From: Cliona cf. orientalis | Taxonomy: Eukaryota > Porifera > Demospongiae > Clionaida > Clionaidae | DNA: 64,000 nt | Assembly: GCA_963930775.1 (NCBI GenBank) | Contig: OZ005694.1 | Location: forward strand, 682,001 to 746,000 | Reading direction: 5' to 3' | Shown here: positions 24,896 through 33,254 of the stretch, piece after piece | Layout: each line of letters begins with the position of its first letter | Position numbering within the stretch: position 1 is the stretch's first letter | The notes under the pieces: model-generated | What the model was told of the DNA's origin: nothing | Databases searched by the model: none | Seen by the model: only the letters and a program-made list of their open reading frames with translations | Position numbers and translations under genes: made by a program

Positions 24896-25256
24896 CTGGA
24901 GTGGAGAGAATACACATACATAATTAAATGCAATCATGAACAATTTAATTTAAGAGACCAGACTAAGTAATAAACTCTCAGTTCCTTTGATGATATTCCA
25001 CTTCAATCACCACATACATGTAAGTAGTCCGATGGTGACTACTAAGTCATGCTGAAGGCATCAGAGTTCACAATAAATCTATCAAATTTATTGGCTTTCA
25101 AAGCAAAATCTGGGAACTACTACCTCAAACATTCTTACCAGGGTTTCAACGGGATAGGGGAGGGGGGGTGAGGGGAAACAGGGGAAGACTCCCCCCACCT
25201 CTTTGCTTAGGCTAAGAATCATCACAAGTATCAAAATCAAACTACTAATTAACTAG

Positions 25257-25574
25257 CAAGGCCGTACATAGGATTTTTCATGCAGGGGGGCAAATAAAAC
25301 GATTGCGCGCATAGCACACGCTAATTTTTTGCCACGCCCACAAACTTATTGACCACACCCACCAAATCGCTTCTAAGGAGGGGTTTTCGAGGAGATCGAT
25401 CCACACAGAGGTCGTTTCTGCGCTGGATGCTGCAGTTTTATGTATAATTTGACTGCTATACTAGCTGACAGAAGACCATTCGACTCAGACTAACAAAACA
25501 GTGAGGATAAGTTGTCACTATGGCCTGGCTCACTGGGGGGGCAACTGCCCCCCTTGCCCTATAGCTAGGTACGG
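25257..25574. mobile_element. Host MITE, left part, split by the transposon
   Basis: It begins CAAGGCCGTACATAGG. The matching inverted end GCTAGGTACGGCCTTG is reached only by skipping the large insertion: its first part lies at 25,564-25,574 and its last five bases at 31,341-31,345. The flanks 25,252-25,256 and 31,346-31,350 are both ACTAG, a 5-bp target duplication. The uninterrupted element would be about 323 bp and non-coding. Confidence 0.8.
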
Positions 25575-25649
25575 CCTAGCCTCGTGCCCAGGCCCTTTGA
25601 GGGGGAGGGGGAGGAGAAAGGGCCTGGTACATACGGGTTGCGCATGCGT
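25575..25649 (+). repeat. Left 75-bp terminal inverted repeat
   Basis: Identical to the complement of 31,261-31,335. It contains a 9-bp-stem hairpin around a polypurine tract and ends in GCGCATGCGT. It lies about 200 bp upstream of the transposase ATG and may carry its promoter. Confidence 0.9.
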
Positions 25650-25847
25650 CGATATGCACCGTAATCTAACCGCATTCTACACCGTCGCACGTAACGGGCC
25701 ACGTGGCGCTCACCCAAAATGTTTGCGTGCACCTCTCGCGCAATTGATTGTAAAAAGCCACAGAAATGTACATTGAGTCCACGTGGCCAGCTAGCTATGG
25801 CGCGCGTTTACCGCGATCCGCAGCTGCTACGTACTGACTAGTTTGCA

Positions 25848-26222
25848 ATGGATGCCAGACAGCTCTGTCGATTATGTGGTGGGGCAGCCGATTACAGTCA
25901 CCGATTTTCACTATTCAGTCTGTCCAACACAAAAAAGGACTTACCTGGAAGAGTGAGCAGAATGTTAGGTGTACCGGTCCTCCAAAACGATGGTCGCCCT
26001 AGTGTAGCATGCAGGCGTTGCATGAACAAGTTTTCAGCTTTGGAACGAGATTTGGAAGCACTAAAACAGAAGGCAAGAGCTGTATACGACAGCTATCCAG
26101 ATAAAGAGAATGTTGGGTGCAGAAAGAGAACACAGAACACTAGTGGATCTGTGGTCTCTCCTTCTACAGCTTCTGTTAGACCCCCTGCAAAGAGAATGGA
26201 TAGGTGTAGGCTATTTGCAAAT
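25848..26222 (+). CDS. Exon 1: ZAD-like zinc finger
   Basis: Residues 1-80 hold CRLC at about 7-10 and CRRC at about 55-58, followed by a leucine/lysine-rich helix (ALERDLEALKQKARAVY). This spacing and order match the ZAD (zinc-finger-associated) fold, which dimerises transcription factors and occurs in some transposon proteins. The rest of the exon is basic and serine-rich (KRTQNTSGSVVSPSTASV), perhaps a nuclear signal. The frame stays open for five codons past the donor before a stop, so a single-exon reading to 26,237 is possible but less likely given the downstream exons. Confidence 0.7.
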
Positions 26223-29200
26223 TGTGAGTCCACATAAACCGGACCTGTACCAGTACTGTTAATAATAATCATTGATACCGTTCAATAGGTGATACCAATG
26301 TGACTCGTGAGCACATAAACTCCACAGCATGTAGCTCTGTAAATCGTGAGTCCATAATCATATTAAAATTTAATATGGATAGCACCTTAAGCTTACAAAG
26401 CTAATAACTACAACTCTACTGTTTGATTAATTAATAGGTGCAGAGACAGGTCAGAACCTGCATCGATTAATGTGACTCGTGAGCCGGCTAACTCGACAGC
26501 ACGTAGCTCAGGTATACATACAGTGATTAATTGTATTAATAAATCATTCAATCAAGTACAAAATTATAATTAATTTTTACACAGCTATGGGGCAAAGAAT
26601 ATCTTCTGGTGTTAGATGCAGCACTATGCCTGTACAGGTACCTATAATTACTAAGCTAGTAATGGATACATTTATTATGTTATTGCTATGCAGGTCGTTG
26701 TTCAGACTCCCAACCTTCCTACCCCCTATAGTGCAGAATTACCAGCTGATCTTTTAAAGATTGGGAGAGCATTGGCTGGTGGTCATATACCAACGATAGC
26801 CAAAGCAGTCTTTAGTCATGCTCCTCTCAAGGAGGAGATAGTGCTGAAAGTGTTGGATACCGTGTCAAATGAATGTGGGGATTTGTGTCGTAAAGGTCCT
26901 GGTAACATCTCATTGTTTCGCAACATTCCACTGGAGCAAATGGAAGAGTTTGAGTGGGCTCAGTGTATTGAAGAACTCCAAAAGAAAGCACCAACACTAC
27001 TACACTTGCTCTCAACAATCATCCAGCACAATGACCATCGAAACACATCCAAGCGTGGTGATCGGCACAATCCTGGAATAAGCATGGCTGTGGCTGTTTT
27101 ACTGAAGGAGAGGAATCGAGAAATGTGTGGTCTGCAATCACTGACAGCCTTGCTGTTGTTCAAAGGGCAAGCACATAAGAAGGCAAGTATAATGTAGTGA
27201 GTTGGATTGGTGTGGCCAGGGTAGTGTGTGTGTTGTGGTCAATCTAATAATATTATCATGTACTATGAATGTGCAATTGTCATACATTGGGTGCAGTGCA
27301 AGTGTGTGTGTACATGTATGTACATGTACATAATATATTATGTGTGTATGCGTGTACCCATGCCGTGTGTGTATGTGTGTACCCATGCCATGTGTGTATC
27401 TGTATTATATTATTATGTGTGTATGCGAGTACCCATGCCGTGTGTATATGTGTGTATGCATGTACCCATGCCATGTGCGTATGTGTGTTTGTTGGTAGTT
27501 GCCTAGCAACCAAAGTTTTTATAGGCAATTTGCTGACTATGGGAAGGGGGTGAGTCATCATGAAGCAGGCCAATGATGAACAGAGGTCAACTACCAACAA
27601 AATAGTTATCTGCCAGTAATTGGGGTGCATGAGATGCATCATCTGCCAGTAATTGGGGTGCATTCGACCATGCATCTCATGCACCCCAATTACTGGCAGA
27701 TAACTATTATATGTATTATAATAATAATATTATTATTACTGTATGTGTGTATGCGTGTACCCATGCCGTATGTGTATGCGTGTATGTGTGTACCATGCCA
27801 TGTGTGTATGTCTATTATAATATTATTATGTGTGTATGTATTTCAGAGAGATAGTGTGTGTGTGAATGTATAATTATGTAGATGTGCATGTGTGTACATG
27901 CATTGATTAAGTCATTATTTTCCTAATGTTTCAGGTGTACACGTACCTTAACCATCTAAATGTCACCCTTAGCTACAATGCCATGCTAAAGCTTGTGTCT
28001 GATGTGAGCAAAAATAATGAAGCACCGCTACGCAAATGGCTCAGTGAGTCTTCCCCTCCAAATGTGAAGTTCGTAGGAGACAATGTCAGCAAGACAGTAG
28101 CGGTTAGGGATATTCGCAGTGACCATCAATCACATTTGAAGCATATGTATAGCATTCTTGTCGTGAAAGGCCGCATTCCCAACCCTCCTGCTTCTGATCA
28201 GCCATTCAAACCCCCACCTCTGACCTCCCTTTCATGTAGCACTTTTCTTCCGAATGAAGACGACATTGCAGCCATCAAGAGGAATCTTACTATGCTTGTA
28301 AGCAGAATTCTTGTCAAGCATGTAAAAGCTTTAAGATGCTTTAGCAAGATAGTCCCTAAGCACATTAGGCACAACCTAAGTGACGAGATGTCTGAAAAGT
28401 CTGAAGTAGCAGTGATAGACGTTCTGCATAAAAATGAAACCTGCAATAAAGATATGCATGAGATTATGCTCACAATGCAGTCCTATCTTGGAGATACTTT
28501 TTCTGAAAAGGTACTCTCTGGAGGTGATCAGGTGACTTGTGAGAGACAGAAGTGTGTTCAAAGGCATGTCATGGATTCAGATACACCAGCAGAGAGGTTG
28601 GAGATGCTAGAGCCAGTAGTGGAGGATTGGCATGCTCTAATGTGCTTTCTGACAGTAAGTAACATAATATAATATCGCTCACATACACCCCCCTTGAAGC
28701 TTGTAGTGCACACAACAGTCAATAGTTCTAATAATAATTTCACCATTACTATATATTTTTTTATGATGCAGTTGACCTGGAAAGTGTTATTCAGTGACAG
28801 TTCTCGTGATCATGGCACCCTCAGTCAACTATTCTCGCTTACAAAACGTCTACCTGCTGCAAAGAAACCCAAAGAAGATATGCATGCATGTACTGATGCC
28901 TTATTTACGGTGTTAAAAGGGTACATTGTTGCTGCTGCTTGTAGAGAACTTAAGATTGACGTAGACACAGAAGGTATTCCCTCACAAGAAATGAAAAGAT
29001 GGAGCTACAAGCAGAAGCTAGCCTGGTTGGTGAGTCTATCCTTTGTCAAGCTGTCAAAGAAAGTGGTGACAAGAAATATGATTATTCTCGTACATTATGT
29101 CACTATGCATGCTTGGCATTGGAGTTCACTGATTGTTGGGGTCAAGCCGATGGTATCAGAGACGTACGATGTTGGCGTCTTTTTTTGCCTCATTTTTCTG

Positions 29201-29748
29201 CCGGTGGAAGGACCAAGTATTCCTTAGAATCCTTGAGATTGCAGCTACAGTTGGCTGTGCTACCACCTCACCTGGTACAGCAGCTGACGTGGGGTCGTTT
29301 TATCAACACACATGGAGGACTGGGAAAAAACATCCCATGTGATTTGCACAACGAACACTTCAACAAGCTTTTCAAGGAAGCAATAAGTCATATGGGGGCA
29401 AACTTCACTAAGGAGGCTACAACACGAGTGGCGAGATCCGTCACTTTCATATCACATGTGGCTGACCGTTTTGAGAAACAAACGAACATCCGCCCTGATT
29501 CTACTGCTCACACAACTAGGAAGGACGATGACGATGTACAGAAAGTGGCAAAAGTGGTTATGAGGGAAAAATTGTGGGATATAATTCCAGGACGCACACA
29601 TCAGGGCTTCAAAAACATGTCAAGTAATCCCCTTAAACCCCTAAAAGTTGAAAAATTAAACTCATGGATTTCTGAAAAAATAAAAGAAACAATAAAGTAT
29701 AGGAGACTACAGGAAGGAAATGTGTCTAACTCTGATGATTCTGACTAG
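25848..29748 (+). CDS. Transposase candidate with ZAD-like N-terminal finger (multi-exon, one frameshift)
   Basis: The start is ATG 25,848 (MDARQLCRLCGG). Exon 1 ends AATT|GTGAGT near 26,222. Short exons follow at about 26,289-26,345, 26,440-26,511 and 26,585-26,637. The main exons are 26,694-27,182, 27,935-28,654 and 28,772-29,748, all joining in phase 0; the intron after 27,182 uses a GC donor (AAGAAG|GCAAGT). The N-terminus has a C-x2-C...C-x2-C finger; the middle is helical and lysine-rich. The last exon holds a conserved block with THGGLGKNIPCDLHNEHFNK and ISHMGANFTKEATTRVARS, which I associate with the DUF6589-type region of transposon-derived invertebrate and fungal proteins, the likely catalytic part. 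There is a one-base loss near 29,028 (between KLAWL and GESILCQ). Role inferred: cutting and joining the element's ends in the nucleus, together with the helicase gene. Confidence 0.75.
26289..26637 (+). CDS. Short repeated exons of the transposase gene (approximate)
   Basis: Two intron-bounded pieces encode near-identical peptides: DTNVTREHINSTACSS (about 26,291-26,338) and SINVTREPANSTARSS (about 26,463-26,510). A third piece (26,585-26,637) encodes AMGQRISSGVRCSTMPVQ and joins in phase to the main exon at 26,694. The first two look like an exon duplication. Their exact boundaries, and whether both are used in one transcript, cannot be settled because the phases of the first two are not compatible in every combination. 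Confidence 0.45.
27228..27860. repeat. GT-rich minisatellite and 39-bp inverted repeat in transposase intron
   Basis: Units of TGTGTGTATGCGTGTACCCA type repeat across 27,335-27,490 and again at 27,740-27,845. Between them 27,601-27,639 and 27,670-27,708 are a perfect 39-bp inverted repeat around a 30-base spacer, and the spacer itself contains another copy of CCAGTAATTGGGGTGCAT. The open frames across this tract are repeat artefacts. Confidence 0.8.
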
Positions 29749-31148
29749 AAACTATTTTATCCCTGCATACATCACAACATAGAGGATTAAGTGTTTCATT
29801 GTCAGTATGTTCTTCAGTTTGATCGAAGTACCTCAATAACTGACGTCTTCTACACTCTGTTGTGTTTTCTAAATATATTCGAACTGCTAACGTCTCTTCC
29901 ATGCGCTTGTTTTTTGCCTCTTTGTACTTTTTGGCATCTGAAGCGCACCAGTATATAGTTGAAGTAGCTTTTTCACCAGTCCTTCCACCTCTACCACTTT
30001 CCTGTAGGTAATCATCCAAGCTATGTGGGGCTCCATAGTGTATTACTGTGTTAACTCCTGCAAAATTCACACCCATTCCTAAAGCGTTGGTAGCAAATAC
30101 TACTCTTGTTGTTCCATCCAATGCTTCCATGCTTTTAAGAATAACAGCCTTATTATGTGGTGAGGTACTAGAATGGTACATACCAAAGAGACGGTTACTT
30201 GCTGTCTCCTCTGCTCCAGGTGGATAGTAGCTCATACTACCAAGCTCGTAAAGAAAGTGTGCATACAAGTCGGCACACATATTAAGTGATTTGCAATAAA
30301 TGATAACACGCAATGCCTTAACAGAATTAGTTTTCAAGTCGTCTACTACATTGGCCAAGTCTGTATCAAGATTAGTACGTAGCTTAACACTGTAATATAT
30401 ATTTGGTCTGTCTGGTGATTCATGGATAAATGTACACCCGTTCATGTCTAATTTTCGTATGATATCCTTACGTGTACATGCATTGACAGTAGCTGTGACA
30501 GCTATCATAGGAGTACCTGAAGGGAGTATAGCTCTGAGTTCATGGAGGGATGAAAAGCTTGGTCGAAAATCTGAACGCCTAGGCGGGTATAAAAGAGTTG
30601 TAAGCTACACGAGATCCGACATCAATATGTATTGAGACTAACCATTGGCTTACACAGTGAGCTTCGTCAATGGTAATTGTGACCATCTGATTGCATAGTG
30701 GTGCTTCTATCAGCATTTCCCTCCATTTATCACATAAAATAGCTTCTGGTGCACTATACAGTAGAGAGTACCCACCATCTCTTATTTCTTTGTCTGTAGC
30801 TAGCAAAACCTTGTCTATTCCCTTATTGCCACTGAGTATCGCAGCTCGAACCCCTTTAGCTCGTAGATTAACTACTTGATCGACCATAAGGGATACAAGA
30901 GGTGAGACTACTAGACACACACTCCTTTCCTTAGGGGGCAAATCCACCCTCTTAAGCTTATGGTCAAACAAGAAGGGGAGGCACTGGTAACAGAGAGATT
31001 TGCCATACCCCGTAGGCAGCCACAAGAACACGTCTTTACAATTGTACACTGCTTTGATAGCCTCTAGCTGCTTGTCTTTTACCTCTAATCCCTCCAAGCG
31101 GAGACAAGACAGAGCGTAGGACAGAGAGAGATCGAAGTTGCTCGCCAT
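29726..31148 (-). CDS. RecQ-type ATP-dependent DNA helicase (transposon-encoded)
   Basis: Two exons, 31,148-30,643 and 30,578-29,726, are separated by a 64-bp intron (CCAATG|GTTAGT...CCGCCTAG|GCG) that splits a tryptophan codon. The product is 452 residues from ATG 31,148. Motifs in order: LPTGYGKS at about 44-51 (Walker A), VSPLVSLMVDQ at about 81-91, DEAH at 161-164 followed by CVSQW, SDFRPSF, the AVTATV segment at about 195-200, RVVFATNALGMGVNF at about 327-341, and QESGRGGR at about 361-368. A RecQ-style zinc-binding tail follows: ECRRRQLL with Cys 411, then LCCDVC with Cys 436, 437 and 440. RecQ helicases unwind 3'-to-5'. This one stops after the zinc domain and lacks a winged-helix extension. 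Its stop lies inside the 3' end of the opposing transposase gene (23-bp overlap). All key residues are present. Confidence 0.9.
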
Positions 31149-31260
31149 TGCAAAATATTCGCGACCATAAGTAGTATACGATAGTTTACGTATTAATATA
31201 CTAGAGTGTGCGAAGGGAATCCAACGAAAATACGATCACCAGGAATCAGGGTGATTAATA

Positions 31261-31335
31261 ACGCATGCGCAACCCGTATGTACCAGGCCCTTTCTCCTCC
31301 CCCTCCCCCTCAAAGGGCCTGGGCACGAGGCTAGG
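31261..31335 (-). repeat. Right 75-bp terminal inverted repeat
   Basis: Exact inverse of the left repeat. It begins 113 bp upstream of the helicase ATG, so the same sequence may act as promoter for both genes. Confidence 0.9.
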
Positions 31336-31539
31336 TACGGCCTTGACTAGTATCAAAAGTAATGAAAAAATCCGGAAGAGTTAACACACTCTTAGAAAAA
31401 GACATCTCCAGAAACTTGGCATACTACATACGCCCACGCATTTATCGTGCTTCAACCCCAAAATTTACCATTAGATGAAACCTTGCTCAACAATACTCCC
31501 TCCTCGAGCATCATGTAGGTCTGGGGCAAGTATCAAAGT

Positions 31540-32738: not shown

Positions 32739-33254
32739 TATAAGTCAATAGAATTCGATTCTGAAGTATCTTTGCATAATGTTAATGATATTATCAAGTA
32801 CTGCACATTATTTGGCTAAAATTAATAATCAGTAGACCAAAGAATTACATGTATAAGTGAGCTCAGCAAAGTTTAGCCTTGTCCCCAGGCCCTGCGGGGA
32901 GGGGAGAAGGGGGAGAGGGAAGAAGGCCTTGGTATCCATTACATGCATATGCATATTATCCATATTAGTAGCCTTATCCCCAGGCCACTACTACGTTTTT
33001 AATTTTGCATTAATAGCTATTACATACCGTCTCCACGAGTATAATGAACTTACTGATTAAACTTGTGTGATTGATCTTTGTGTAAGTACATGTACCAAGC
33101 ACATAATGTCGGAACATTTGATCTAGTAAGCACAATACATGTCTCTTAGTTATTAAGCAATGCGAGGTAGGATTAATTTGGGCGTAACCTGGGTCATTGA
33201 TGGCAGCTGGGTAACTTGACTGTATGACTGTAAGGTCAAGGTCACTGTGTTTGA

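Follow-up and report, generated by a model that had tools for sequence, protein, structure and literature searches.

A probable AcademH transposon from the sponge Cliona cf. orientalis pairs a candidate DUF6589 transposase with a convergent RecQ helicase gene

Introduction

AcademH transposons have reportedly been found in animals and fungi, going by the title of a 2020 paper by Kojima. The nuclease of AcademX is XPG-like, and Kolobok elements duplicate the sequence TTAA. Here we describe a DNA transposon at positions 25577-31333 (5,757 bp) of a 64,000-nucleotide stretch of the genome of the sponge Cliona cf. orientalis (GenBank assembly GCA_963930775.1, contig OZ005694.1, positions 682,001 to 746,000; hereafter the window, in whose own numbering coordinates are given). 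We are confident that this element belongs to the AcademH lineage, as a nearly full-length but degenerate copy that is by itself non-autonomous and that carries genes for a RecQ helicase and for a protein with zf-AD and DUF6589 domains.

AcademH elements encode a helicase and have target site duplications (TSDs) of 9-10 bp, whereas AcademX, the other lineage of the Academ superfamily, has a nuclease and TSDs of 3-4 bp, and this difference in length has been linked to the enzymes (PMC10045372). In fungi, AcademH is present at low copy number in three phyla (PMC10799480). KolobokH is likewise a DNA transposon that encodes a RecQ helicase, which in one red-algal Kolobok case lies on the complementary strand (PMC9587614). 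As early as 2013, a paper citing Kapitonov et al. mentioned a RecQ helicase in Academ (PMC3627910); with KolobokH as a further case (PMC9587614), a transposon-borne helicase is not the unusual division of labour that a preliminary description of the locus had supposed.

Results and discussion

The transposon is bounded by perfect terminal inverted repeats (TIRs) of 73 bp, the left at 25577-25649 on the forward strand, with TAGCCTCGTG as its first bases, and the right at 31261-31333 on the reverse strand, without a difference between them; the true starts, 5'-TAGCCTCG, are at 25577 and 31333. The arms as a whole extend over 91 nucleotides (nt) with 92% complementarity, including two target bases on each side, and their outer 75 positions are identical, 73 of which are element. 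The repeats had been described as 75 bp long; the long perfect pair stands, while the two outermost bases on each side, CC and GG, are target bases that happen to prolong the repeat. A 9-bp TSD, GGTACGGCC, flanks the element at 25568-25576 and 31334-31342. The 5-bp duplication TACGG proposed earlier is the middle of this sequence, with the target GG and CC mimicking repeat bases, and it was dropped in view of a twin copy (L071, host genome contig C7; 98.6% identical, 5,358 of 5,435 aligned bases) and of other copies, which place the element end at TAGCC. We set the end there because the twin's own 9-bp TSD, AATATGGTG, lies immediately outside TAGCC.

Other copies of the ends, whose duplications the preliminary description had proposed to score, also have TSDs, mostly of 9-10 bp. 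The sample consisted of 30 loci and seven others, to which L077 and L078 of a second family were then added. Repeat views of one element were counted once (L027, L073 and L074; L001-L004 for the window element and its twin), and we left out L025, whose left-hand match does not form a true end, as well as the one-ended L005, L009, L011, L012, L016 and L019. Among the 22 distinct two-ended elements of the first sample, 15 have exact TSDs of 9 bp, two have exact TSDs of 10 bp (L022 and L023) and five have none that is exact: L007 and L024 agree at 8 of 9 positions, and L010, L017 and L026 do not match. With L077 (10 bp, CAGCATACAT) and L078 (9 bp, CACTGATCA), both read with symmetric ends, the count for 24 distinct elements, this one included, is 16 at 9 bp, three at 10 bp and five without an exact TSD.

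As the preliminary description had it, two convergent genes occupy the space between the repeats, the transposase gene on the forward strand and the helicase gene on the reverse strand. The former is spliced from several exons. Its first exon region (25848-26237, an open reading frame of 129 residues with an approximate donor) encodes a zf-AD domain (32.2 bits, cut-off 28), which accounts for the N-terminal C-x2-C...C-x2-C finger recognized before. Small exons probably lie within 26222-26693, followed by an exon at 26694-27182 (163 residues, no Pfam domain, a GC donor at its end, limits inferred from sequence). DUF6589 starts in the exon at 27935-28654, and its remainder is in the last exon, 28772-29748. 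The His/Asn/Gly-rich block noted at the C-terminus is conserved across DUF6589 loci in our alignments.

Sequence conservation suggests that this zf-AD/DUF6589 protein is a DDE-type transposase, with candidate catalytic residues Asp, Asp and Glu in the motifs GDN (codon 28079-28081), GDQ (28526-28528) and NEHxN (29353-29355). In a query-anchored alignment of 20 DUF6589 loci, the covering rows keep these residues in 14 of 16, 15 of 16 and 20 of 20 cases, respectively; the GDN Asp is upstream of the Pfam DUF6589 match. L064 and L057 were left out of the protein alignments on account of stop codons. A search for relatives of the DUF6589 C-terminus returned 32 pattern matches in GTDB genome contigs and 22 in viral contigs, none of which was confirmed.

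Two repeats lie within this gene. Between the first transposase exons is a 41-nt direct repeat with 83% identity (26297-26337 and 26469-26509), perhaps a duplicated small exon. An unrelated dispersed repeat of about 225-240 bp occupies 27487-27716 of an intron (forward strand, approximate ends); it has at least 30 near-full-length copies elsewhere, with 84-94% identity, and is partly retained in the twin.

The helicase gene consists of exon 1 (30643-31148, reverse strand), with the Walker A motif and DEAH box, and exon 2 (29726-30578, reverse strand), with Helicase_C and the RecQ zinc-binding domain, separated by an inferred GT-AG intron of 64 bp (30579-30642). Its frame is intact in the window copy and encodes 452 residues, in which the preliminary description had read RecQ motifs and a zinc tail. 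Profile and structure searches agree with that reading: DEAD, Helicase_C and RecQ_Zn_bind (35.2 against 25) are above their Pfam cut-offs, the profile of the RecQ family, TIGR00614, scores 276 bits against a curated cut-off of 219.8, and the nearest solved structures are E. coli RecQ, WRN and RECQ1 (best E-value 3.3e-45). The core helicase and zinc-binding domain are thus shared with RecQ helicases such as E. coli RecQ, WRN, RECQ1 and BLM, whereas Pfam reports neither an RQC winged helix nor an HRDC domain for the two exon frames of the element.

We found the same pair of genes many times over in the host genome (216.8 Mb in 149 contigs; the genome searches score the best candidates only). DUF6589 gave 125 matches, which represent 102 main loci and 23 pieces of the same loci, and the window locus, added by hand, brings the number to 103; 110 matches to the helicase protein merged into 78 loci. 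A DUF6589 locus lies within 10 kb of 60 of the 78 helicase loci, and in 60 of 60 cases the two genes are tail-to-tail, 55 times at a distance of 218-684 bp; counted from the other side, 59 of the 103 DUF6589 loci are paired. RecQ_Zn matches behave in the same way, with 37 of 62 within 10 kb of DUF6589, where 0.6 would be expected, and 37 of 37 tail-to-tail. When the 20 best DUF6589 loci, the window, its twin and the two of the second family (24 in all) were inspected closely, helicase similarity was present in 21, on the opposite strand in all 20 that have more than 100 aligned helicase residues. As for the remaining three, the helicase of L066 is 1.75 kb off, and in L060 and L065 an opposite-strand frame ends, as judged by eye, in a zinc tail like that of RecQ. 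Contig C1, with 17% of the assembly, holds 45 of the 103 DUF6589 loci and 26 of the 78 helicase loci.

With many divergent families, among them the second family in two near-identical copies, the genome is a good source of comparisons. These copies, L077 and L078, share 99.4% identity along 5,059 bp and have 67-bp TIRs starting TAGCCTCGTCCCCAGG; their gene layout is that of the window element, with a helicase frame of 445 residues and no intron. In L078, zf-AD, DUF6589, DEAD and Helicase_C are above the Pfam cut-offs. The Walker A motif reads GYSKS in L077 and GYGKS in L078, and one of the two helicases may be inactive.

These loci bear on a reading in which a host RecQ gene is merely adjacent to an unrelated repeat, or was captured by it once. 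Its support comes from the 25 of 62 RecQ_Zn matches that lie away from listed DUF6589 loci, a number that includes the window's own match, whose DUF6589 is unlisted. The preliminary description had named as evidence against its view the occurrence of the two genes elsewhere without the repeat ends, or other copies of the ends that never enclose either gene; we find both genes within the same ends in L071 and within related ends in L077 and L078, which leaves that view unrefuted and refutes the host-gene explanation. The tail-to-tail order in 60 of 60 pairs also speaks against it, as does the correlated divergence of the two proteins (r = 0.93 between their distances at 20 loci, 0 of 2,000 permutations as high, a value inflated by near-identical pairs in the sample). 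We consider this explanation practically dismissed. A tree of 20 helicase C-terminal halves contains no host RecQ; of two genomic stretches taken for host RecQ, one has a match of 124 residues and the other none.

Comparison with the twin indicates how far the window copy has decayed. Its transposase frame is broken at 29021-29022 (forward strand), where 43 bp are missing relative to the twin, so the claim that the element is complete or nearly complete holds for its length and fails for its transposase. The twin itself has a 1-bp insertion in the first exon, and its helicase exon carries an insertion of about 228 bp that includes a long run of T (window position 30190). Each copy has disrupting indels, and in neither do both genes appear to be intact. 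Per site, silent differences between the two copies are more frequent than replacement differences in the transposase, with 11 at 309 silent and 4 at 1,128 replacement sites (p = 2e-5; 27935-28654 and 29029-29745, which excludes one further exon and the beginning of the last one).

The TSDs of 9 or 10 bp (19 of 24 exact), the helicase, the perfect 73-bp TIRs and the lack of a nuclease nearby together argue for membership in AcademH, which has the encoded helicase and the TSDs of 9-10 bp in common with the window element (PMC10045372). As far as it could be tested, the assignment made in the preliminary description thus stands. AcademX, whose nuclease and 3-4 bp TSDs differ from what is seen here (PMC10045372), is ruled out by TSD length and by the absence of an XPG domain nearby: XPG_I matches occur at four places in the genome, the nearest about 777 kb (start to start) from any of the 103 listed DUF6589 loci. 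KolobokH would also place a RecQ gene beside a transposase, even on the complementary strand as in the red-algal Kolobok (PMC9587614). Its TTAA is not what we find at 9-10 bp TSDs of varied sequence, and the transposase matches zf-AD and DUF6589 with no other Pfam family above its cut-off. A KolobokH element is therefore highly improbable.

Several points, beside the inflation of the correlation above, weigh against our reading. Membership in AcademH is read from TSD, helicase, TIRs and lack of nuclease; for the transposase itself there is only the DUF6589 label. In the genome search, 44 of the 103 DUF6589 loci have no helicase within 10 kb, and 18 of the 78 helicase loci have no DUF6589 within that distance. 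Eight of the 44 were among the loci inspected, and six of these have helicase similarity (L054, L055, L061, L062, L068 and L070, that in L062 spanning 69 residues only), the other two being L060 and L065. RecQ_Zn_bind is below its cut-off in L078 (22.1 against 25). The helicase differs between window and twin at 6 of 299 silent and 7 of 1,060 replacement sites (p = 0.045), a weak excess of silent changes in a signal of 13 changes only. With regard to the DDE fold, a single-sequence structure model of one window exon alone was unusable (predicted local distance difference test score 36), a PDB search with one DUF6589 exon had as its best match a ubiquitin-conjugating enzyme (E = 0.0066), with no stretch passing alone, which we attribute to chance, and PDB searches with DUF6589 alignments reached E = 0.58 and 0.75 at best, with unrelated proteins.

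The transposon entered an older element, X, that resembles a miniature inverted-repeat transposable element. X lies on the forward strand at 25257-25576, with its last three bases at 31343-31345, and was interrupted near its right end; it has the ends CAAGGCCGTAC and its own 5-bp TSD, ACTAG, at 25252-25256 and 31346-31350. In X copies elsewhere, the uninterrupted junction reads CTAGGTACGGCCTTG (L083, L084 and L085; one change in L082). These empty sites are compatible with TSDs of both 5 and 9 bp because of the GG/CC coincidence, and are therefore not decisive. L081, a paralogue of the surrounding locus, has neither X nor the transposon and contains a single ACTAG. From these sequences, a local duplication was likely followed by the insertion of X and then by that of the AcademH-type element. 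Among 40 scored genome matches, none had the two window flanks directly next to each other.

The ends of the element belong to a very large set. When up to one mismatch is allowed, the genome has 6,249 matches (3,136 + 3,113) to the 19-base terminal motif TAGCCTCGTNCCCAGNCCC and 0 to the reversed control, which is beyond chance and in contrast to the low copy number of AcademH in fungi (PMC10799480). Element lengths are 212-811 bp in 20 of the 22 two-ended elements, in a sample biased to short elements by loci that extend 1.5 kb past an end. Lookalikes of the end motif with 1-3 mismatches are also found in the window at 32874 (+), 32969 (+), 37512 (-) and 4124 (+), perhaps as short derivatives. 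L018 contains near-perfect palindromes of 42 bp (near 951 on the forward strand, with a reverse-strand end at 2082) that are two fused TAGTCTCG-type ends with nothing between.

Each TIR contains a palindrome, at 25588-25627 on the left and, in the same form, at 31283-31322 on the right, with 11-bp arms, CCAGGCCCTTT and AAAGGGCCTGG, around an 18-nt loop, as read from sequence and fold. A palindrome CCAGGCCC...GGGCCTGG is found 11 bases into the ends; its loop varies, and its inner arms vary between families and are partly still able to pair. Genome-wide, matched arms number 433 for CCAGGCCC/GGGCCTGG and 488 for CCAGACCC/GGGTCTGG, and the two mixed combinations 12 each (exact CTCGTNC + arms + T, loop of 8-34 nt; copies are counted, not independent changes). 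With 921 matched against 24 mismatched pairs, the symmetry has therefore been kept through change on both sides; the double change of the arms may have arisen a single time. One interpretation is that a selected palindrome beside the cleavage site, as a hairpin or cruciform, must be opened by the element's own RecQ helicase. We regard it as unlikely; if true, transposon end recognition would be organized around a dedicated helicase. A plainer alternative, in which a transposase dimer binds the dyad-symmetric site as double-stranded DNA, would predict the same pattern.

In the mechanism that we propose, the transposase would bind and cut the TIR ends and join them to the target with a stagger of 9-10 nt. 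The RecQ helicase would be a dedicated partner acting on DNA during transposition, for example to open the GC-rich palindromic ends or single-stranded and branched intermediates. The window copy would be mobile only if another copy supplied the transposase, as must evidently have been so for the short derivatives without genes. We put the chances that the helicase takes part directly in the transposition reaction at about even.

An AcademH element could also carry its helicase as an accessory, for repair or re-copying of the donor site after transposition, which would favour copy gain; this shares the AcademH identity and competes for the role of the helicase only. RecQ helicases are established in the repair of broken DNA, the helicase is encoded by a separate gene, and other lineages bear very different accessory proteins (PMC9587614). 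Helicase similarity in 21 of the 24 inspected loci counts the other way, as does the difference in TSD length between AcademH and AcademX, which is tied to their enzymes and hints at a role in strand transfer (PMC10045372). We give this reading somewhat less than an even chance.

Conclusion

A literature search did not find the name "DUF6589"; for ZAD with transposase and for Academ with sponge or Porifera, no relevant account turned up, and in one paper ZAD appeared in the references only. On the strength of that single name search, the recognition of DUF6589 as the AcademH transposase is possibly new. The convergent layout and the TIR palindrome, for which the search was not exhaustive, are possibly new as well, and the founding paper on AcademH may describe both.

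By this analysis, DUF6589, a Pfam family of unknown function, gains a likely identity as the transposase of AcademH. The convergent arrangement of transposase and RecQ helicase recurs across a large and diverse set of elements, and the covarying palindrome in the TIRs provides a testable clue to what need a cut-and-paste transposon would have of its own helicase.

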